In this document: positions 14,137 to 50,407 of the stretch, piece after piece
How the letters are laid out: each line of letters opens with the position of its first letter
Numbering within the stretch: position 1 is the stretch's first letter
DNA from: Synechococcus sp. JA-3-3Ab
GTDB taxonomy: Bacteria; Cyanobacteriota; Cyanobacteriia; Thermostichales; Thermostichaceae
Assembly: GCF_000013205.1 (NCBI RefSeq)
Contig: NC_007775.1
Coordinates: 2,042,501-2,106,500 of the forward strand
Reading direction: 5' to 3'
DNA length: 64,000 nt
The notes under the pieces: generated by a model
Told to the model about the DNA's origin: nothing
Databases searched by the model: none
What the model saw: the letters and a program-made list of their open reading frames with translations, nothing else
Made by a program: the position numbers and the translations under genes

Positions 14137-15339
14137 ATGACGGCGCAAAGCAACCGCTCCAGGGAGACACCAGCCTTAGAGATTTCCTCCCAGTCCTGCC
14201 CTTTTGGTTTGCCTGCCTCTGTCGCTGTTTCAGCAATACCTTACATGTCTAACTACGAACCTGAGCTCAACGACATTTTGTTGGATGGCGATCTCCTCGA
14301 TCCCGCTGAGGAAGCAGAGGTAGATCTGGCCGAGAGCGAGTTTGCAGAAGAGGAGCCAGCTCGCCGCTCCACCGATCTGGTGCGCCTTTATTTGCAGGAG
14401 ATCGGTCGTGTTCCCCTCCTGGGTCGCGATGAGGAGGTGGCTCTGGCCCAAAGAGTCCAAGACTACATGAAGCTTTTGGATGTGCGCCTGCGCCTGCAGA
14501 AAGAGTTGGGACGGGAGCCAACTCTGGCCGAGTGGGCAGCTAGGGCCAACCAGTACCCCGAATGGGCCAACCTCACCCCCGAGAAGCTACAGCAGATCCA
14601 GCGAATTGGCAAGCGCGCCAAAGAGCACATGATCAAAGCTAACCTGCGCCTGGTGGTGTCGGTGGCGAAAAAATATCAAAATCGCGGCCTGGAGCTGCTG
14701 GACTTGATCCAAGAGGGCACGCTGGGCCTGGAGCGAGCGGTGGAGAAGTTCGATCCCAAGAAGGGCTATCGCTTCAGCACCTACGCCTACTGGTGGATCC
14801 GGCAGGGCATCACCCGCGCCATCGCCACCCAGAGCCGCACTATCCGCTTGCCCGTTCACATCACCGAGAAGCTGAACAAGATCAAAAAAGCCCAGCGCAA
14901 GCTTTCCCAGGAGAAAGGCCGTACCCCCACCATTGAGGATATTGCTTCCGAGCTGGAGATGACGGTGCCCCAGGTCAGGGAGCTGCTGGTGCGGGTGCCG
15001 CGCTCGGTTTCTCTGGAAACCAAGGTGGGCAAAGACAAGGACACTGAGCTGGGGGATCTGCTGGAAACCGACGACATCTCCCCCGAAGAGACGATGATGC
15101 GGGAGGCCCTGCATCGCGATCTACAGCAGTTGCTGGCAGATCTCACCAGCCGCGAGCGGGATGTGATCCGCATGCGCTTTGGGTTGGGGGATGGGCGCAC
15201 CTACTCGCTGGCGGAAATTGGCCGCGCCTTGGATCTGTCGCGGGAGCGGGTACGGCAAATCGAGGCCAAAGCCCTGCAAAAGCTGCGGCAGCCGAAGCGG
15301 CGCAACCGAGTGCGAGACTACCTCGAAGCCATCAGCTAG
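14137..15339 (+). CDS. sigma-70 family RNA polymerase sigma factor, group 2 (SigC-like)
   Basis: The 400-residue sigma factor has region 1.2 (DLVRLYLQEIGRVPLLGRDE, near residue 88), region 2 (LRLVVSVAKKYQNRG through YAYWWIRQGITRAIA), region 3 and region 4.2 (LAEIGRALDLSRERVRQI). There is no long group-1-type N-terminal domain. The LGRDEEVALAQRVQ wording is closer to my memory of SigC than of SigA or SigB, so group 2 is likely but not proven. An alternative start is the ATG at 14245 (MSNYEPELND), which has the better conserved N-terminus. Confidence 0.85.
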   Translation: MTAQSNRSRETPALEISSQSCPFGLPASVAVSAIPYMSNYEPELNDILLDGDLLDPAEEAEVDLAESEFAEEEPARRSTDLVRLYLQEIGRVPLLGRDEEVALAQRVQDYMKLLDVRLRLQKELGREPTLAEWAARANQYPEWANLTPEKLQQIQRIGKRAKEHMIKANLRLVVSVAKKYQNRGLELLDLIQEGTLGLERAVEKFDPKKGYRFSTYAYWWIRQGITRAIATQSRTIRLPVHITEKLNKIKKAQRKLSQEKGRTPTIEDIASELEMTVPQVRELLVRVPRSVSLETKVGKDKDTELGDLLETDDISPEETMMREALHRDLQQLLADLTSRERDVIRMRFGLGDGRTYSLAEIGRALDLSRERVRQIEAKALQKLRQPKRRNRVRDYLEAIS

Positions 15340-39086: not shown

Positions 39087-41399
39087 TCACTCCAGCATAG
39101 CTTTGTTTTCGCCTGAATCCTCCGCCAGCTGGGGCGGCTGCCACTTCAGCACCAAGGTTGAAAGAGGGGGCAGGCAGAGCTCAAGCGAGTAGGGCAGGTT
39201 GTGGTAGGGCCAGTCATCCGTCCACTTGCCCCCTAGGTTGCCAACCCCGCTGCCCCAGAACTCTACCGCGTCGCTGTTGAGCAGTTCCCGGTAAAACCCT
39301 CGCTGCGGCACGCCAATGCGGTAATTCGGCCAAACCACCGGCGTAAAGTTACAGACTACCACTAGCCACTCCCTGGGATCCTCCCCATATCGGATAAAGG
39401 AGATAATGCCCCGATGGTCGCTGCAGTCAATCCAGCGGAAGCCTTCTGGCTTGGTGTCTTGGGTGTAGAGAGCCGGTTGCGAGCGCAGCAGCTGGTTGAG
39501 AGTGGCTACGTAGTGGCGCAGCTTGGCGTGGGGCTCATACTGCAGCAGCTCCCAGTCTAGATCTGCCCAAACATTCCACTCGTTCCACTGGCCAAACTCC
39601 ATGCTCATGAACAGGGTTTTCTTGCCAGGGTGAGTGAACATGTAGCCGTAGAGAGCCCGCAAGCTGGCGAACTTGTGCCACAGATCTCCTGGCATTTTGC
39701 CCAGCATGTGGCTTTTGCCGTGCACTACCTCATCGTGGGAAAAAGCCAGCATGTAATTTTCACTGAAGGCATACATGAGGCTGAAAGTCACTAGGTTGTG
39801 ATGGAACTGGCGGAACCAGGGATCCATGCGAAAATAATTCAGCATGTCGTGCATCCAGCCCATGTTCCACTTGAGGTTAAAGCCCAGACCACCCACATGG
39901 GTTGGCCAGGTTACCATTGGCCAGGCAGTGGATTCCTCGGCAATGGAAAGAACGCCAGGGTAGTACTTGAAAATAAGGGTGTTGAGCTGGCGAAAAAAGT
40001 CGATGGCCTCCAGGTGTTCTCGCCCGCCGTAGCAGTTGGGGATCCATTCTTTGCGGTCGTAGTCCAGATAGAGCATTGAGGCCACCGCATCCACCCGAAG
40101 GCCGTCGATGTGGTATTTGTCAAACCAAAAGAGGGCATTGGCTATTAGATAGTTGCGCACCTCGTTGCGGCCGTAGTTGAAAACCAAAGTGCCCCAGCCC
40201 TTGTGCTCGCCCTTGCGGGGGTCGGCATATTCGTAGAGGTGGGTACCGTCAAAAAAGGCCAGCCCATGCCCATCTTTGGGGAAATGCCCCGGCACCCAAT
40301 CGACAATGACGCCGATCCCTTCCTGGTGGGCGCGATCGACAAAGTACATGAAGTCTTGGGGCGAGCCGTAGCGGGAGGTTACCGCGTAGTAGCCAATAAC
40401 CTGGTAGCCCCAGGAGCCGTCGAAGGGGTGCTCGGCCACGGGTAAGAGCTCGATGTGGGTAAAGCCCAGCTCCTTGACATAGGGGATCAATTTGTCCGCC
40501 AGCTCCCGGTAGGTAAGAAAGCGGGTGTTGGGCTTTTGCTCCACCGGCACCAGGTGCCCATCAGCGGGGGGGTCTTCCGTGGAAGCGTGCATCCAGGATC
40601 CCAAATGCACCTCGTACACCGAGATGGGCGAGCGCAGGGGGTCGGTGGCAGCCCGCTTTTCCAGCCACTCCTGGTCGTGCCAGGTATAGGTGTGGAGGTC
40701 GGCTACAATTGAGCCGGTTTTGGGTCGCACCTCCTGCTGAAAGCCATAGGGATCTGACTTTTCGTAGATATCCCCCCAGGCAGTTTTCACCTCGTACTTG
40801 TAGACGGCTCCTGGCCCAACACCAGGGATGAACACCGCCCAGATGCCGCTTTCGCCCAGCCGCTTCATCTGGTGTTGGCGGCCATCCCAGTGGTTGAAGT
40901 CGCCAATGACACTGACATTGCGGGCGTTGGGAGCCCAGACGGCAAAGTGGACTCCCTGAACCCCATCTACGCTGATGGGATGAGCGCCCAACTTCTCGTA
41001 GATGCGGTGGTGGTTGCCCTCGTTGAAGAGGTAGCGATCCAGCTCGCCGATGTGGTTGACCTTCTCCAGGGGAAAGCGATAGGGATCCTCCCACTCTTCC
41101 AAGTGCTGGCCCTCCGGATCCCAGACCCGCTGCGCCCGCAGAAAGTAGTCTGGAACCGGCGTGCCAGGCGCAAAGCACAGCTCAAACAACGTTTCTGGAT
41201 GCAGCGGCTGCATGGGGTAGGCCTGCCCAGTGGCGCGTTCTACCAACCAAACCTGTTTGGCATTGGGCACCAGGGCCCGCACCAGCCAGAAGGACGTCTC
41301 CCCCTGCTCTATCTGCTGCGGCCCCAAAACAGCATAGGGATCCTGCCACTGGTTGGTGACGAACTGAAGCACTTGTTCGGCAGACAGGAGAAAGCCCAT
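39087..41399 (-). CDS. glgB: 1,4-alpha-glucan branching enzyme, GH13
   Basis: The 770-residue GlgB makes alpha-1,6 branches in glycogen. It has an N-terminal CBM48 domain (about residues 115-210, [20 protein letters not shown]) and a GH13 barrel with [16 protein letters not shown] (nucleophile Asp), [10 protein letters not shown] (acid Glu) and [14 protein letters not shown] (stabiliser Asp). I chose ATG 41399 because the next codon upstream that could start is only a TTG. A separate GH57 branching enzyme lies at 48.8 kb, with glycogen synthase between. Confidence 0.96.
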
Positions 41400-41473
41400 C
41401 GGCAAGCTTCAACAAAGCAACAATCTCAGTCTAGCGGTCGTCGGCTGCCGCTTTTGGCAGCTCGTGACATCCT

Positions 41474-41517
41474 CTCCCGCTAAGCCCTGACGGGCTGTAG
41501 ACGGGAGCTTCCGAGAA
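41474..41517 (-). ncRNA. probable omega-RNA 3' hairpin of the complete IS605 element
   Basis: On the minus strand a nested stem (CTCCCG with CGGGAG outside, AGCCC with GGGCT inside, loop GTCA) is followed by AGGATGTCAC. It overlaps the end of tnpB, as known omega RNAs do. The bases just outside (GAGCTGCCAAAAGCGG) would be the guide. Transcription is inferred, not shown. Confidence 0.5.
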
Positions 41518-42751
41518 TCACTTCCCGGAGTTGCTGCTTCAACGGACTGGTAAACCAGGATCCTCCACAGCCAGAGAGCGGCAGTCCCACCGCCCTGAGT
41601 CCTCGCTTCAAAATCTCGATAGCAGCGTTCAAGTCTCTGTCCCACGACCCGCAACGGGGGCAATCATGCACCCGTTCCGACAAGGCCTTGGGAACACGCT
41701 CCTCACAAACACAACAATTTTGGGACGTACCACGGGGAGCCACTCTCAACACCTGTTTGCCGCGTTTGACCGCCACTGCTGTCAGAATGTCAAGAAATCG
41801 TCCCCAAGCCGCATCCAAAATCGATTTAGCCAACCGAGTTCGTGCCAGCCCTCGGACGTTGAGATCCTCCACCACCAACAGGTCGTATTGCCCCACCAGC
41901 CAGTGCGCCACTTGGTAGTGGAACGCTTTGCGTTGTCGGGCAACGTGCAACTGCAAACAAGCAACTTTCGTGGCTTGTCTCTTCCAGTTGGCGGATCCCT
42001 TCACTTTGCGGCTCAGTTGCCGCTGCTGTCGAGCCAAGTGCTTTTGAGCTTGGCGGTAGTGCCGCGGGATAGGCACCACCTCCCCATCGCTGGTGGTGAG
42101 AAACCTATCCAATCCCACATCAATGCCCACCGCCTTTTTGATCGGCACAGGCTCTGGGAGAGGAACGCTTTTGTCTTCCAAGCTGATGCAGACATACCAC
42201 CCATCGGCCTTGCGCACCACTGTGCAGGTTTTGGGCACAAACCCCTCCGGCAAGGGGCGGTGCAGCACCACAGGCATCGAGCCAATCTTGCTCAGCCGCA
42301 GAGTCTCCCCTTCCAGATGCGCTCCCGCCTTGGGGCAATTGATGCGGGGGAATGTGAAGGATCTCAACTCCCCCGCTTTTTTGAAGCGAGGCCGCCCCCG
42401 CCGCTTGCCTGTGCTATCCGGCTCCCGCCACGCTTTCCACGCCTTGTCCAGCCGCATCAAGTTTTGCTGCAGCACCTCGGCGTAAATGCCCCGGTAGGCC
42501 GGGAACAGTTGCTTGATTTGTTTGAGGGATCCCGCCTGCCGATAATAATTCGGCTCCAGCGGAGCTTCTGACACAGGCAACGGACAAGAGACAAGACTGC
42601 AGCGGTCAATTGGGCAACGGGTTGCGGTCAGCCAATCCAGTCTCTGCCCCAGAGCGTCGTTCCACTGCCGCCGCAACAATTCCAGCCACTCGGTCATCAG
42701 AGCGGCTTGGTCGTCGCTGGGCAGGATCCGGTACTCGTGGGTGATAATCAT
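41480..42751 (-). CDS. tnpB: RNA-guided nuclease TnpB of complete IS605 element
   Basis: The 423-residue protein carries the RuvC triad: Asp in VGIDVGLDRFLTT, Glu in LLVVEDLNVRGL, Asp in SWDRDLNAAIEIL. The zinc finger is CCVCEERV and CPRCGS. It is a different branch from the TnpB at 9-10 kb, since they share little outside the motifs. The C-terminal 45 residues after the last Asp (GCGGSWFTSPLKQQLREVIL) overlap the end hairpin. It shares a short promoter region with tnpA. Confidence 0.92.
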   Translation of the reverse strand: MIITHEYRILPSDDQAALMTEWLELLRRQWNDALGQRLDWLTATRCPIDRCSLVSCPLPVSEAPLEPNYYRQAGSLKQIKQLFPAYRGIYAEVLQQNLMRLDKAWKAWREPDSTGKRRGRPRFKKAGELRSFTFPRINCPKAGAHLEGETLRLSKIGSMPVVLHRPLPEGFVPKTCTVVRKADGWYVCISLEDKSVPLPEPVPIKKAVGIDVGLDRFLTTSDGEVVPIPRHYRQAQKHLARQQRQLSRKVKGSANWKRQATKVACLQLHVARQRKAFHYQVAHWLVGQYDLLVVEDLNVRGLARTRLAKSILDAAWGRFLDILTAVAVKRGKQVLRVAPRGTSQNCCVCEERVPKALSERVHDCPRCGSWDRDLNAAIEILKRGLRAVGLPLSGCGGSWFTSPLKQQLREVILGSSRLQPVRA

Positions 42752-42775
42752 GAGACGGTTCTAGCATTTAGCGCA

Positions 42776-43183
42776 ATGAGCTACAACATAAGCCATCGTT
42801 CTGTTTACAGCCTACAAATCCACTTGGTGCTGGTGACAAAGTACCGTCGTCGGGTGATAACTGCTCCAATGTTGCAGAGGCTGGAAGATATATTTCGAGC
42901 GACCTGCCAAAAGTGGCGCAGTTCCTTGGTGGAGTTCAACGGTGAGGCGGATCATGTGCATCTGTTGGTGAGTTTTCCGCCGGATGTTCAGGTCTCGAAG
43001 CTGGTGAACAACCTGAAAACAGTCTCCAGCCGGTTGATTCGCAAAGAGTTCGCCACAGAGGTGGCACGGTTCTACAGCAAGCCTGTATTTTGGACAGGGA
43101 CCTATTTTGTTGCCTCTTGTGGTGGGGTCACCGTTGAGGAGTTGAAGAAGTATGTCGAGCAGCAGGCAACGCCCAGATTGTGA
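42776..43183 (+). CDS. tnpA: IS200/IS605 Y1 transposase TnpA
   Basis: The 135-residue HUH-type single-strand transposase has the metal-binding HVH in EADHVHLLVSF and the catalytic Tyr in ELKKYVEQQ. VYSLQIHLVLVTKYRR is the family opening. The ATG at 42776 (MSYNISHRSVYS) is preferred; the longer frame begins inside tnpB. It moves the element as single-stranded DNA through its end hairpins and could mobilise related TnpB-only elements. Confidence 0.93.
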   Translation: MSYNISHRSVYSLQIHLVLVTKYRRRVITAPMLQRLEDIFRATCQKWRSSLVEFNGEADHVHLLVSFPPDVQVSKLVNNLKTVSSRLIRKEFATEVARFYSKPVFWTGTYFVASCGGVTVEELKKYVEQQATPRL

Positions 43184-43214: not shown

Positions 43215-43406
43215 CGCCTATCCTCCAGCCCGCCAAGCTGCGCTGTGGAGGGAGTACCCCGGAGGTTCTCATGGATTCCAGAGCCATGGCAGTAGCAGCC
43301 AAACCTTTCTGCCCCCGGGAAAACCTGCTAGAGTTGGGAGGGGATAATTCCCCTCCTTGCCAGCGAGGTTGGTTGGCTTGTTCTATTTTTGGGGTTTTGG
43401 GGACTT

Positions 43407-43685
43407 ATGGCTATCCTGCTGTCGAGCGAACCTATCCTGGCCGTGAGCATCTTCGGCATGGGCCTGCCAGAGCTGGCCGTGATTGGGATAATTGCAGTGG
43501 TCGTGTTCGGCCCCAAGAAGCTGCCGGAGTTGGGCAGCGCCTTCGGCAAAGCGTTGCGCAGCTTCAAGCAAGAGATGAACAACCCCAGCAGCGATGACGA
43601 GCCCACCGCCGGTGCCGATCGCGTCAGCGGGACGGAGTCCCTGAAGGTAGAAGCGGAGAAGGTGGTCGAGAAAGATGCCGCCTGA
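43407..43685 (+). CDS. tatA: twin-arginine translocase subunit TatA/TatE
   Basis: The 92-residue protein has one membrane helix (MGLPELAVIGIIAVVVFG) followed by the amphipathic signature FGPKKLPELGSAFGKALRSF and an acidic tail. It supplies the pore-forming TatA of the twin-arginine export pathway, which is also needed by the Tat-dependent binding protein at 2 kb. I chose ATG 43407; the upstream alternative is a TTG at 43389. A later ATG directly before the helix (residue 18) is possible. Confidence 0.9.
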   Translation: MAILLSSEPILAVSIFGMGLPELAVIGIIAVVVFGPKKLPELGSAFGKALRSFKQEMNNPSSDDEPTAGADRVSGTESLKVEAEKVVEKDAA

Positions 43686-43923: not shown

Positions 43924-44757
43924 ATGGCGGAGCCGACCGATTTCGAGCTGATGCGCCAGATCCAACTGCGGGATCGCCGCAGCCACTTTTTACTTAAGGA
44001 TCGCTACCAAAAGCGCCTGCTGGAGATCGCGCTGTCCACTCTCAAGCAGCCTCACCAGGCCGAAGAGGTGGTGCGCCAGGTGTTTGAGTTCTGCTGGAAA
44101 CATGCGGAGGCCTTTGACCTGCAGCGGGATCGCTCGGTGGCCCTGTGGCTTTACGAGTTGACGGCCTTTCAAGCCCAAGAACGCTTGCGGCGCTGGAGCT
44201 GGTTGCCCGCCCCTGCCTCCATCCGGGTCGCACCTCCTTGGTGGCCGCGGCGCCTCCTCTGGGGCAGCTTAGTAGGGTTAGGGATCTACGCAGTGGCCAT
44301 AACAGCGGCCTACTGGCGGCTGCGCTGGCAGGGGGAGTCGGTAGCCATTCAACGGCTCTATCAGGAGTGGCAACGACAACCGCAGGTACGGCGAACCCTT
44401 CTGCGCGACCCCAGCTTCCGCAACCCCCTGTTGGTACAAGCTCTCTGGTCGCCCCGCGCCAAGCAGGTGTTGCTCTTGGCTTCAGAAATGCCCCCTGCCC
44501 CCCCGGGAACCACCTACCAACTGTGGCTGGAGTCGGCTGGGCAGCGCCTGGAAAGCGCCGGCACCTTCACCGTCAACGCCGAGGGATCCCTGCAATGGCT
44601 CAGCCAGCCCACCCATTCACAGCAGCCGACCCGCCTTTGGATTACCCTCGAACCGGCAGGCGGGAGCGAATCCCCCACTGGCGCCCCTCTGCTGCAGAGC
44701 AACTTCTGGATCCCTGCCTCTCAACCTGAGGAGAGCAAAGAGAACCTCTTAAACTAG
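43924..44757 (+). CDS. sigma2-like / membrane / anti-sigma-K-like fusion protein
   Basis: The 277-residue protein has three parts. Residues about 5-95 resemble region 2 of ECF sigma factors (LLKDRYQKRLLEIALSTL, AEEVVRQVFEFCWKHAEAFD, VALWLYELTAFQAQERLRRW). A membrane helix follows at about 110-130 (LLWGSLVGLGIYAVAITAAY). The outer part (about 175-275) resembles the RskA/anti-sigma-K domain: LLLASEMPPAPPGTTYQLWL, SAGTFTVNAEGSL. No sigma region 4 is present, so it cannot be a normal sigma factor. It could be a membrane-held decoy or regulator. The reading is inferential but each part fits well. Confidence 0.65.
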   Translation: MAEPTDFELMRQIQLRDRRSHFLLKDRYQKRLLEIALSTLKQPHQAEEVVRQVFEFCWKHAEAFDLQRDRSVALWLYELTAFQAQERLRRWSWLPAPASIRVAPPWWPRRLLWGSLVGLGIYAVAITAAYWRLRWQGESVAIQRLYQEWQRQPQVRRTLLRDPSFRNPLLVQALWSPRAKQVLLLASEMPPAPPGTTYQLWLESAGQRLESAGTFTVNAEGSLQWLSQPTHSQQPTRLWITLEPAGGSESPTGAPLLQSNFWIPASQPEESKENLLN

Positions 44758-44811
44758 CTTGAAATGACTCCTGAGACCCTGGAAGTTGCCCCGTCAGGTC
44801 AAGGGATTCAT

Positions 44812-44830
44812 CCCCCCGTATACGGCGGGG
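44812..44830. repeat. palindrome CCCCCCGTATACGGCGGGG, copy 2
   Basis: This is a near-perfect copy of the 8999-9016 palindrome with one inserted C, again preceded by CATC and followed by GAGGGGGG. It lies between the fusion gene and the bestrophin gene, and any bestrophin start upstream of it would translate through it. Confidence 0.65.
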
Positions 44831-44950
44831 AAGAGGGGGGCCTGCGCCGCCAAGGTTTCGGTCAACAACCGTTGCCATGACGGTAGTAGGATCAGGGGGC
44901 AGGCTTGCCGACGCCACACCAGGATTCGCCAGTATCTATCGGGAAATGGG

Positions 44951-46081: not shown

Positions 46082-46447
46082 ATGCTGAAATGCACCACCC
46101 GCCACGTTCACATCTTTGCTGGCGAGGTGACCGCCGATAACCACTTTGTGCCTCGCGACGATCTGCTCACCCTCGATGTGGATCCCGACAACGAGCTGGT
46201 CTGGAACGATGCCGCCTTGCAGAAGGTCTATGCTCGTTTTGAGGAATTGGTAGAAGAGTACAGGGGCCGGGATCTGACTGAGTACAACCTGCGGCGCATC
46301 GGCTCTGACCTGGAACACTTCATTCGCTCTCTCCTCAAGCAAGGGGAAATTGCCTACAACCTGCAGGGGCGTACCCCCAACTACAGCATGGGCTTCCCCC
46401 AGATCCCTGCTGAAGAAATTGTCGGCCAGTACATCCCCAAAGGTTAG
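46082..46447 (+). CDS. ndhM: NAD(P)H-quinone oxidoreductase subunit M
   Basis: NdhM is a peripheral subunit of the photosynthetic NDH-1 complex, used for cyclic electron flow and respiration. The 121-residue protein shows LTLDVDPDNELVWNDAALQK, DLTEYNLRRIGSDLEHFIRS and the end NYSMGFPQIP, all diagnostic. The N-terminus MLKCTTRHVHIFAGEV is typical. It is followed 75 bases later by the DUF2996 gene, and both end before a strong hairpin terminator. Confidence 0.96.
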   Translation: MLKCTTRHVHIFAGEVTADNHFVPRDDLLTLDVDPDNELVWNDAALQKVYARFEELVEEYRGRDLTEYNLRRIGSDLEHFIRSLLKQGEIAYNLQGRTPNYSMGFPQIPAEEIVGQYIPKG

Positions 46448-46521: not shown

Positions 46522-46974
46522 ATGTCTGGAGAACCTACCCCCGCCCAGGAAACCGCTGTCGAAAAGCCGGCCCGGGTTGAGGCCGCCAACCCTGCTCCCA
46601 AGGAGACTGACACTGCCCAAGCCTCGCCCAAAGCCGCAGCAAAAAAACCAGCCAAGGAAGAGAAGCCTTTCGAGCAACTCATTGCAGAAGATGTGATCCC
46701 GGCAACCATCGCCGCTTTTCAGAAACGCGGCGTCACCGATCTGCAACTGCGGCTGGAGGGCAAGACGCTGATTGGCTCGTTTGCCGGCGGCAAAAAGCAG
46801 TTTAGCGTCCTCTTTGCCGAGGGATCCCTCAATGGGCCCAAGTTCTTCCGCTGCGCTATTGAAGGATCCCCGGCCAGCACCATTGAGTCTTTTATGATCG
46901 ACGAGCGTCGCGTCGATGTGCCCCTGTTCGTGTTCTATCTGCTGCAGCGCCTCTATGCCCAGCAGTGGTATTGA
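46522..46974 (+). CDS. DUF2996 family protein
   Basis: The 150-residue protein has a disordered Ala/Pro/Lys-rich N-terminus (about residues 1-50) and a conserved domain: PFEQLIAEDVIPATIAAFQK, LRLEGKTLIGSFAGGKKQF, and the end FYLLQRLYAQQWY. This matches the cyanobacteria/plastid DUF2996 family as I recall it. Its function is unknown. It is probably cotranscribed with ndhM. Confidence 0.78.
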   Translation: MSGEPTPAQETAVEKPARVEAANPAPKETDTAQASPKAAAKKPAKEEKPFEQLIAEDVIPATIAAFQKRGVTDLQLRLEGKTLIGSFAGGKKQFSVLFAEGSLNGPKFFRCAIEGSPASTIESFMIDERRVDVPLFVFYLLQRLYAQQWY

Positions 46975-47171: not shown

Positions 47172-48647
47172 ATGTACATCGTGCAGATTGCGTCGGAATG
47201 TGCCCCGGTCATCAAGGCGGGGGGGCTGGGGGATGTGGTGTACGGCCTCAGCCGAGAGCTGGAAGTGCGGGGCCACTGTGTCGAGCTGGTTTTGCCCAAG
47301 TACGACACCATGCGCTACGACCAGATCTGGGGCTTGCACGACGCCTATCGCGACCTCTGGGTGCCCTGGTATGGGGGAGCTATTCACTGCTCGGTGTACT
47401 GCGGCTGGGTACATGGCCGCCTTTGCTTTTTTATTGAGCCCCACTCCGGCGACAACTTTTTTAATCGTGGCTGCTACTACGGCTGCCCGGACGACAACAT
47501 GCGCTTTGCTTTTTTCAGCAAGGCGGCTCTGGAGTTTCTTCTCAAAAGCAATAAGCGCCCCGATATCATTCATTGTCACGATTGGCAGACAGGATTGGTG
47601 CCGGTGCTGCTCTTTGAGATTTACAAGTACCACGGCATGGAAAACCAGCGGGTATGCTACACCATCCACAACTTTAAACACCAAGGCTTTGGCGGCCCGG
47701 AAATCCTCTGGGCCACCGGCCTCAACCGGGAGCCCTATTACTTTCATTACGACCGCCTGCGAGATAACTTTAACCCCTTTGCCCTCAACTTTATGAAGGG
47801 CGGGATCGTCTTTTCCAACTTCGTGACCACCGTTTCCCCCACCCATGCCCTGGAAGCGCGATTTGGTAATTACAACTATGGACTGGGACACACTCTTTAC
47901 TTGCACCAGCACAAGTTTCGCGGCGTCTTGAATGGCATCGACTACGATATTTGGAACCCTGAGATCGATCGCTTTATTCCTTTTCACTACACGGCGCAAA
48001 CTTTGGAAAACAAGGCCAAAAACAAAAAAGCACTGCGGGATCAGCTATGGCTACAAGATGTTGATAAGCCCATTGTGGCCTATATTGGGCGGCTGGACGA
48101 GCAAAAAGGCGTGCATCTGGTGCATCATGCCATCTACCGCTCCCTGTTTAAAAATGCCCAATTCGTGCTGCTGGGATCCGCCACGGAGCCGGGGATCGGC
48201 GCCTGGTTTGCCCATGAGAAACGCTACCTCAACGACAACCCCGATGTTCACATCGAGCTGGGCTTCAACGAAGAACTTTCCCACCTCATCTATGCGGGGG
48301 CAGACATCCTTGTGGTGCCCAGCCACTACGAGCCCTGCGGCCTTACCCAGATGATCGGCCTCAAGTACGGCACGGTTCCGGTGGTGAGGGGCGTGGGCGG
48401 CCTGGTGGATACCGTTTTCGACCGCGATTACGACACTCGCAAATTGCCGGAGCAGCGCAATGGCTACGTGTTCTACCACACGGATCGCGCGGCTCTGGAG
48501 TCGGCGCTGGATCGGGCCATCGACCTGTGGTACACCGCTCCCGACCAGTTTCGCCAACTGCAAGTCCAGGGCATGAGCTACGACTACTCCTGGAACTACC
48601 CCGGCAAAGAATACCTGGAGATCTACGAGTTCATTCGCCACCGCTGA
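47172..48647 (+). CDS. glgA: glycogen synthase
   Basis: The 491-residue GT5 glycogen synthase transfers glucose from ADP-glucose to glycogen. It shows the donor-site KAGGLGDVVYGLSREL at the N-terminus, HCHDWQTGLVPV near residue 135, NGIDYDIWNP and the second-lobe GRLDEQKGVHLV. PSHYEPCGLTQMIGLKYGT carries the C-terminal active-site Glu. It sits with two branching enzymes in this region (glgB at 39 kb, GH57 at 48.8 kb). Confidence 0.95.
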   Translation: MYIVQIASECAPVIKAGGLGDVVYGLSRELEVRGHCVELVLPKYDTMRYDQIWGLHDAYRDLWVPWYGGAIHCSVYCGWVHGRLCFFIEPHSGDNFFNRGCYYGCPDDNMRFAFFSKAALEFLLKSNKRPDIIHCHDWQTGLVPVLLFEIYKYHGMENQRVCYTIHNFKHQGFGGPEILWATGLNREPYYFHYDRLRDNFNPFALNFMKGGIVFSNFVTTVSPTHALEARFGNYNYGLGHTLYLHQHKFRGVLNGIDYDIWNPEIDRFIPFHYTAQTLENKAKNKKALRDQLWLQDVDKPIVAYIGRLDEQKGVHLVHHAIYRSLFKNAQFVLLGSATEPGIGAWFAHEKRYLNDNPDVHIELGFNEELSHLIYAGADILVVPSHYEPCGLTQMIGLKYGTVPVVRGVGGLVDTVFDRDYDTRKLPEQRNGYVFYHTDRAALESALDRAIDLWYTAPDQFRQLQVQGMSYDYSWNYPGKEYLEIYEFIRHR

Positions 48648-48796: not shown

Positions 48797-50407
48797 ATGA
48801 TGGGCTATCTCGCCTTGGTACTCCACGCACACCTGCCCTTTGTGCGCCACCCTGAGCAGGACTTCGTGCTGGAAGAAGAATGGCTCTACGAAGCCATCAC
48901 CGAGACCTATGTCCCGCTGCTGCACATGTTCGAGGGGCTGCGGCGAGATGGCATCGACTTTCGCTTCACCATGTCCCTGACGCCGCCCTTGGTGTCGATG
49001 CTGCGGGATCCCTTGCTGCAGGAGCGCTACGACCACTACCTAACCAAGTTGGAAGAGCTGGCCCAACTGGAATACGACAAGAACGCCACCAACGGCCACA
49101 TTCGCTACCTGGCCGAGCACTACATCAAGCAATTTGCCATGGTGCGCGATCTCTGGGAGCGCTACGACCGGGATCTGGTGCGGGCCTTCAAACAGTTTCA
49201 AGACAGCGGCAACCTGGAGATCATTACCTGCGCGGCTACCCACGGCTACCTGCCCTTGATGCAGATGTACCCGCAGGCGGTATGGGCCCAACTTATCGTG
49301 GCCTGCGAGCACTACAACGAACACTTTGGCCAATGGCCAAGAGGGATCTGGCTGCCGGAGTGCGCCTACTACCAGGGGCTGGAGCGGATGATCGCCGATG
49401 CCGGCCTGCGCTACATGATCACCGACGCCCACGGTTTGCTCTATGCCAAGCCGCGGCCCCGCTACGGCATGTACGCCCCCATCTTCACCGAGACTGGCGT
49501 TGCCGTCTTCGGTCGGGATCACGAGTCTTCGCAGCAGGTGTGGTCAGCGGAGGTGGGCTACCCTGGGGATCCCGTCTATCGCGAGTTCTACAAAGACCTG
49601 GGGTACGAGGCCGACTACGAGTACATCAAGCCCTACATCATGCCCAACGGCCAGCGGAAAAACACCGGCATCAAGTACCACCGCATCACGGGGCGCAACC
49701 TCGATCTGGGACAGAAGCAACTTTACGATCCCTACTGGGCCAGGGAGAAGGCGGCAGAACATGCGGGCAACTTCATGTTCAACCGCCAGCGGCAGATCGA
49801 GTATTTGTACAGCGTCATGGGGCGTCCGCCGCTGGTGGTGGCCCCTTATGATGCCGAGCTGTTCGGCCATTGGTGGTATGAGGGCCCCTGGTTTTTGGAT
49901 TTCCTCATTCGCAAGAGCTACTTCGACCAAAATACCTATCGCATGACTCACCTGGCGGAGTACTTGCGGGAGAACCCCACCCACCAGGTGTGCAAACCTG
50001 CCCAGTCCAGTTGGGGGGCGCGCGGCTTCCACGAGTACTGGCTCAACCCCACCAACGCCTGGATCTACCCCCACCTGCACAAGGCTACCGAGCGGATGAT
50101 CGAGCTGAGCCGCCGCGAGCCTGCCGATGACCTGGAGTGGCGGGCCCTGAACCAGGCGGCGCGGGAATTGCTCCTGGCCCAATCTTCCGACTGGGCCTTC
50201 ATCATGCGCACGGGGACGATGGTTCCCTATGCGGTACGCCGCACCAAATCCCACCTGCTGCGCTTCAATCACCTCTACGAGAAGATCCAAGCCGGCCAGT
50301 TTCGGCGAGAAAAAGCCACCCCTGAAGACGAGCAGTGGCTGGCCAAGGTGGAATACATGGACAACATCTTCCCCAACCTCAACTACCGTGTCTACCGGCC
50401 CCTCTGA
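48797..50407 (+). CDS. GH57 1,4-alpha-glucan branching enzyme
   Basis: The 536-residue protein opens with YLALVLHAHLPFVRHPEQDF, the GH57 signature. The nucleophile Glu is in GIWLPECAYYQGLERM and the acid Asp in VVAPYDAELFGHWWYEG. It ends in a helical C-terminal domain typical of the DUF1957 branching enzymes of thermophiles and cyanobacteria. It starts 149 bases after glgA and is likely linked to glycogen metabolism. The first of two adjacent ATG codons is at 48797 and the second at 48800. Confidence 0.92.
   Translation: MMGYLALVLHAHLPFVRHPEQDFVLEEEWLYEAITETYVPLLHMFEGLRRDGIDFRFTMSLTPPLVSMLRDPLLQERYDHYLTKLEELAQLEYDKNATNGHIRYLAEHYIKQFAMVRDLWERYDRDLVRAFKQFQDSGNLEIITCAATHGYLPLMQMYPQAVWAQLIVACEHYNEHFGQWPRGIWLPECAYYQGLERMIADAGLRYMITDAHGLLYAKPRPRYGMYAPIFTETGVAVFGRDHESSQQVWSAEVGYPGDPVYREFYKDLGYEADYEYIKPYIMPNGQRKNTGIKYHRITGRNLDLGQKQLYDPYWAREKAAEHAGNFMFNRQRQIEYLYSVMGRPPLVVAPYDAELFGHWWYEGPWFLDFLIRKSYFDQNTYRMTHLAEYLRENPTHQVCKPAQSSWGARGFHEYWLNPTNAWIYPHLHKATERMIELSRREPADDLEWRALNQAARELLLAQSSDWAFIMRTGTMVPYAVRRTKSHLLRFNHLYEKIQAGQFRREKATPEDEQWLAKVEYMDNIFPNLNYRVYRPL

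Follow-up and report, generated by a model that had tools for sequence, protein, structure and literature searches.

We found that a single open reading frame of Synechococcus sp. JA-3-3Ab joins a degenerate region 2 of an ECF sigma factor to the membrane helix and outer domain of an RskA-type anti-sigma factor. Ordinarily a sigma factor and its anti-sigma factor are two partner proteins; in this fusion, the core-binding domain of the former stands where the inhibitory domain of the anti-sigma receptor was, and it remains under strong constraint after the loss of its transcription residues. The fusion is a real gene. Judging from its sequence, the product probably serves at the membrane as a regulatory binding module, not as a functional sigma factor.

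Architecture of the fusion protein

The gene lies within a 64,000-nucleotide stretch of DNA that was analyzed as a whole (hereafter “the window”). It opens with ATG, and stops interrupt the opposite strand in the same register. The features of the gene and its conserved neighbor are as follows.

43389-43685, + strand: tatA, the conserved upstream neighbor of the fusion gene (Pfam TatA_B_E, E = 5e-18)
43924-44757, + strand: fusion gene (sigma2-like domain, linker, one membrane helix, RskA_C); 277 residues plus stop, orthologs in eight genomes
43936-44199, + strand: degenerate ECF-type sigma region 2 (residues 5-92; Pfam match 26-92)
44200-44253, + strand: poorly conserved linker (residues 93-110; low pLDDT and the highest dN/dS of the protein)
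44254-44310, + strand: single membrane helix (residues ~111-129), prolonged as a long helix to ~151
44290-44682, + strand: RskA_C, the anti-sigma-K C-terminal domain (residues 123-253), presumed to lie outside the cytoplasm

An ECF sigma region 2 at the N-terminus had been recognized in the initial annotation, and Pfam, a profile search of the Protein Data Bank and the fold all bear this out. HMM searches gave significant matches to both expected domains and met no unrelated helical family: Sigma70_r2 covers residues 26-92 (29.6 bits, E = 5.8e-7; Pfam curated cut-off 24 bits), scoring slightly better when residues 1-93 are searched alone (E = 7e-8), and RskA_C covers residues 123-253 (62 bits, E = 9.2e-17; cut-off 29.4 bits). 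Both families match all eight orthologs. When the eight fusions were combined into a profile, its matches in the Protein Data Bank were a sigmaE/SigW chimera (E = 1.8e-7), SigW (5e-6), sigmaE (6e-4) and SigK (7e-4). NCBIfam places an anti-sigma model over residues 98-255 and many ECF models over residues ~5-95, all of them below their whole-protein cut-offs.

The claim that region 4 is missing likewise stands: up to an E-value of 1, Pfam finds neither Sigma70_r4 nor Sigma70_r4_2 in the protein, and no third family. In the structural model, region 2 leads straight into the linker and the membrane helix. Neither region 4 nor an anti-sigma domain was detected by Pfam in the linker, and no receiver domain was detected in the protein. 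Further, the N-terminal anti-sigma domain of the RskA family has no match in the fusion protein, residues 5-92 being sigma2 instead. The initial annotation overlooked this second absence; of the anti-sigma factor, only the membrane helix and the outer domain are kept. That there is one such helix, as had been proposed, is supported by the single hydrophobic segment in the hydropathy profile (peak 1.84 at residues ~111-129) and by a modeled helix spanning residues 108-151. The identification of the outer part with RskA was also correct, but its assigned boundaries (170-277) begin slightly late, given that the Pfam match starts at residue 123 and the beta domain at ~153.

Predicted structure

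An AlphaFold model built from the eight fusion sequences alone was confident in RskA_C only, with a poor sigma2 domain (pLDDT ~55). The addition of ECF and RskA homologs to the alignment raised the mean pLDDT to 89 (sigma2 91-98, outer domain 92-97, linker 53-72). The accompanying pTM of 0.55 indicates that the domains have no fixed arrangement. In this second model, residues 2-97 adopt the sigma2 fold and superimpose (Foldseek, VIA-align) on region 2 of sigmaE (Z = 14.8, 2.2 A over 93 residues) and on SigK (4nqw; Z = 14.8, 1.2 A over 86 residues). Because the ECF sequences in the alignment impose the fold, this agreement confirms it by homology and not independently.

Residues 153-265 (44380-44718) were modeled as a beta sandwich resembling Cu/Zn superoxide dismutase, with a Z-score of 9.9 to metal-free SOD1. 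A metal site in this domain can be rejected, as it has no conserved His or Cys. On the strength of the model, the RskA_C family as a whole may share the SOD-like fold.

Conservation, distribution and selection

The single-frame fusion is present in all eight sampled genomes of the Thermostichaceae, a family of cyanobacteria from hot springs and their relatives, six from the genus and two others from the family, with full-length identities of 46-86% among the orthologs. Frameshifting or misassembly was considered and rejected, as the identical single frame occurs in eight genomes, two of them single-contig. At the level of the order, the fusion was found in eight of nine genomes; the ninth, which belongs to another family, lacks it. 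A full-length profile search of 390 genomes of the class (~380 of them other cyanobacteria) revealed no further fusion; its next-best matches were ECF sigma factors, aligned over residues 5-100 only. A second fusion elsewhere in the cyanobacteria was also sought by reading the RskA and ECF loci in six frames, and none was encountered there. One 402-residue RskA frame (L094) was rejected as a candidate, its sigma gene occupying a different, overlapping frame. Profile scanning of genome contigs reached only close relatives, including a hot-spring Synechococcus (M44_DOE_062), an uncultured cyanobacterium and Synechococcaceae SM2_3_1 and SM2_3_2, and a search of plasmids returned ECF sigma2 matches only. 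The restriction of the fusion to one family is a statement about the sampled cyanobacteria.

Within the genus, dN/dS (Nei-Gojobori) is 0.04-0.085 for sigma2, 0.07-0.18 for RskA_C and 0.14-0.50 for the linker and membrane helix. These values imply that both end domains are under selection, and sigma2 is the most constrained part of the protein. Between genera, synonymous sites are saturated and therefore only identity is usable; it amounts to 51-65% for sigma2, 40-47% for RskA_C and ~30% for the linker and helix. The retention of a single frame in eight genomes, down to 46% identity and under strong purifying selection, makes the fusion more than a chance event. One ortholog (L007, G007:C260) lacks the end of region 2.4, its ERLRR helix end being replaced by ALPTSPRW; this part of the domain may thus be dispensable.

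Gene order and co-resident ECF/RskA pairs

In all eight genomes, tatA lies directly upstream of the fusion gene on the same strand. Downstream are bestrophin, purN-like or mazG-like genes, which differ between genera. It had been suggested that the same gene order be sought in other cyanobacteria: the tatA synteny holds throughout the eight genomes of the family, but none of 22 tatA loci outside it (L130, L132-L152) has a sigma2 or RskA sequence beside tatA. A scan for promoters before the fusion gene gave nothing above shuffled sequences, and Rfam has no match in the window.

Among the loci examined, both domains share one frame only in the fusions; cyanobacterial RskA_C elsewhere has a gene of its own, which adjoins an ECF sigma gene and often overlaps it. 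One or two normal, separate ECF/RskA pairs of this sort accompany the fusion in each of the eight genomes, an example being the full ECF sigma factor and separate RskA_C protein at 2248316/2249191 in genome G000. Among the neighbors of the fusion gene itself, no cognate ECF sigma or anti-sigma gene was found.

Degeneration of the sigma2 domain

The eight fusions were aligned with 72 cyanobacterial ECF sigma2 sequences. Residues of the domain core are kept in the fusions (A36, L40, F54, W58, W75, L76, R27 and Y28), and 13 columns are invariant among them while being rare in ECFs. Several of the residues most typical of ECFs have been replaced. Y25, found in 97% of ECFs, is K in all eight fusions, and in the region 2.2 pair Q/L51 has become R and D/E52 has become Q, again in all eight. 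Toward the end of the domain, R81 (100% of ECFs) is A in six of eight, S82 (94%) is F in seven, R83 (96%) is Q, Y or H in all, and D86 (94%) is E in seven, such that the R-S-R motif of regions 2.3/2.4 gives way to A-F-Q. The paired ECF sigma factors of the same genome retain the usual residues. With the region 2.2 pair, Y25 and the R-S-R residues lost, direct binding of a promoter or of polymerase by this domain is unlikely; the changes suggest, without proving, that RNA polymerase or DNA binding has been lost.

These replacements bear on the proposal, made in the initial annotation, that the protein holds core RNA polymerase. As a membrane tether, the sigma2 domain would retain the polymerase at the membrane, or block its sigma site there, until released. 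The fold is indeed that of region 2, through which sigma factors mainly bind the core enzyme, but the invariant R51-Q52 and K25 all fall on the surface that faces beta' (assignment from PMC7406223), and we regard such a tether as improbable.

Even more doubtful is that the domain is half of a split sigma factor, which would be released by proteolysis and pair with a separate region 4 protein in the manner of RsoA and SigO. Region-2-only sigma subunits do exist (RsoA; PMC8103513). Nonetheless, the promoter-recognition residues of regions 2.3/2.4 are lost, and the strong region 4 matches in genome G000 (>39 bits) coincide with sigma genes already found by the region 2 model. That genome yielded no ECF-type region 4 protein standing alone; the four weak matches that were read are, by sequence, regulators of the NarL/LuxR type. 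The likelihood of this arrangement is therefore very small.

Positions 21, 22, 25, 26, 30, 34, 47, 51, 54 and 58 presumably correspond to the sigmaE residues in contact with helix 4 of the anti-sigma domain. The positions were mapped through the alignment of the fusion profile to the Protein Data Bank and the numbering of sigmaE, with the contact list drawn from PMC7406223. In class I anti-sigma domains, helix 4 binds to sigma regions 2.1 and 2.2, on a surface that also binds beta' (PMC7406223). At the ten contact positions, the identity of fusions to ECFs is 35%, versus 62% among ECFs; the corresponding figures are 38% versus 72% in the 2.3/2.4 helix and 29% versus 41% in the rest of sigma2. 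The contact surface carries the invariant changes L21H, S/G22F, Y25K and Q51R. A concentration of invariant columns on this surface was considered and not claimed, the numbers (three of 10 contact positions versus 10 of ~75 others) being too few. Likewise, a basic patch for membrane or nucleic-acid binding was discarded, since a net charge of +1 to +4 is not striking beside the ECF mean of +0.7.

The decoy function put forward in the initial annotation can be judged against this surface. A membrane-bound counterpart of PhyR would act as an anti-anti-sigma factor: when triggered through RskA_C, its sigma2 domain would take helix 4 of a co-resident RskA and so free the ECF sigma factor. An intact sigma2 fold, a co-resident pair in every fusion genome, the known contact of helix 4 with regions 2.1 and 2.2 and the precedent of degenerate sigma mimics in such a role (PhyR, PMC8103513) keep this mechanism a candidate. 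Yet helix 4 uses the very surface that has been altered in the fusions, which weakens simple mimicry of a sigma factor. Region 4, which makes up the rest of the contact, is missing, and no cognate anti-sigma gene adjoins the fusion. On balance, we find a decoy rather unlikely.

Finally, the gene could be the relic of a deleted operon, kept for its outer RskA_C domain only, with sigma2 as a passive anchor. Lost sigma residues, and an ortholog that dispenses with the end of region 2.4, are what such a relic might display; but a passive anchor would hardly be expected to be the most constrained part of the protein within the genus, or to have 13 fusion-specific invariant residues in eight sequences. 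We give this explanation about as little credence as the polymerase tether.

Proposed origin and mechanism

To our reading of the sequence, the chances are about even that the protein is a single-pass membrane protein whose cytoplasmic pseudo-sigma domain acts via a protein partner and not on promoters. With somewhat less confidence, we propose a fuller scheme: a one-piece membrane receptor of the Thermostichaceae, assembled from the end pieces of a sigma/anti-sigma operon, in which sigma2 serves as the output in the form of a protein-binding module with a remodeled but conserved partner surface. The ancestral locus would have been an ECF sigma-rskA operon, and a deletion that began where sigma region 2 ends and stopped shortly before the membrane helix of RskA would have removed region 4 along with the anti-sigma domain. 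In a tree of sigma2 (84 columns), the fusions form one clade that sits on a long stem and has no obvious parent. They are also one long-stemmed clade in the RskA_C tree, where they join the genus’s own RskA weakly (SH-aLRT 73). As we interpret them, the trees neither prove nor reject an origin by deletion.

The receptor would have its N-terminus inside the cell, as RskA does. The retention of RskA_C implies that the outer domain has probably kept the ability to sense or bind some periplasmic ligand or stimulus. By analogy with RskA-type systems, the membrane helix could relay the signal to the cytoplasm, or regulated proteolysis could release a sigma2 fragment there. In view of the lost residues, the output of the pseudo-sigma domain would be the binding of a protein partner, with no recognition of promoters. 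The most natural first candidate for this partner, itself not a likely one, is the anti-sigma factor of a co-resident ECF/RskA pair; a new partner is as likely. We would rank first a partner within the sigma network that is new or altered, followed by an anti-sigma domain, then core polymerase and then a split-sigma partner.

If the pseudo-sigma interpretation is true, a stress switch of two proteins can turn into a membrane regulator of one, and the sigma mimics, of which few are listed (e.g. PhyR), gain a membrane-bound member. There is also a caution for annotation: genes with the order sigma2, membrane helix and RskA_C may be miscounted as sigma factors.

Relation to known systems

The fusion protein shares with the SigK/RskA system the RskA_C outer domain, one membrane helix and a sigma2 fold like that of SigK. 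It differs in that a sigma2-like domain replaces the cytoplasmic anti-sigma domain and in that no sigma gene adjoins it.

The initial annotation knew of no precedent for the fusion. This must be amended, as ECF sigma/anti-sigma fusions have been described, namely IutY (ECF243), ECF48/52/53 and some ECF36 proteins (PMC8999054); among them, we found none that keeps region 2 alone, and we found no description of the sigma2-membrane helix-RskA_C arrangement in the open literature. Proteins of the IutY/ECF52 kind also have sigma and membrane-bound anti-sigma sequence in one chain, and proteolysis by Prc and RseP turns IutY into an active sigma factor (PMC8999054). However, they are sigma factors with anti-sigma or regulatory extensions, whereas the present protein lacks region 4, the anti-sigma domain and the region 2 motifs. 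The text of a survey that covers the sigma70 architectures of 361 cyanobacteria and distinguishes 59 organizations does not include RskA_C among the commonest accessory domains that it names (PMC11119718).

PhyR, of the alphaproteobacterial general stress response, similarly has a sigma-like domain, whose contacts to polymerase and promoter have degenerated and which serves as an anti-sigma trap (PMC8103513). As a response regulator, PhyR is switched on by phosphorylation, whereas the fusion is a membrane protein with RskA_C and without a receiver domain. RsoA of Bacillus subtilis, the region-2-only subunit that works with SigO (PMC8103513), resembles it in having region 2 without region 4, but RsoA pairs with a separate region 4 protein, while the fusion is membrane-anchored and no such partner was found for it.

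Other features of the window

An IS200/IS605-type element (41480-43183) is inserted between glgB and tatA. Its Y1 transposase gene tnpA (42707-43183, + strand) overlaps tnpB (41480-42751, - strand) head to head, and the latter encodes a Cas12f1-like TNB domain. On the other side of the fusion gene, the spacing to the bestrophin gene is ~115 bases in the window (44757-44870) versus ~700-900 bases in the other five Thermostichus-type genomes. In the two such spacers that were read (L089:5893-6471 and L042:6637-7092), the other strand has a helix-turn-helix transposase-like reading frame that the window’s genome lacks.

A sigma70 region 2 at 14629-14841 (85 bits), within a 422-residue frame, belongs to a normal, non-ECF sigma factor gene. 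By sequence, the surroundings of the fusion gene are a neighborhood of glycogen genes: a glgB-like gene (39087-41405, - strand) precedes the element, and glgA-like and GH57-like genes (47172-48647 and 48797-50407, + strand) follow further downstream. Between these glycogen genes lie NdhM (46082-46447) and DUF2996 (46522-46974).
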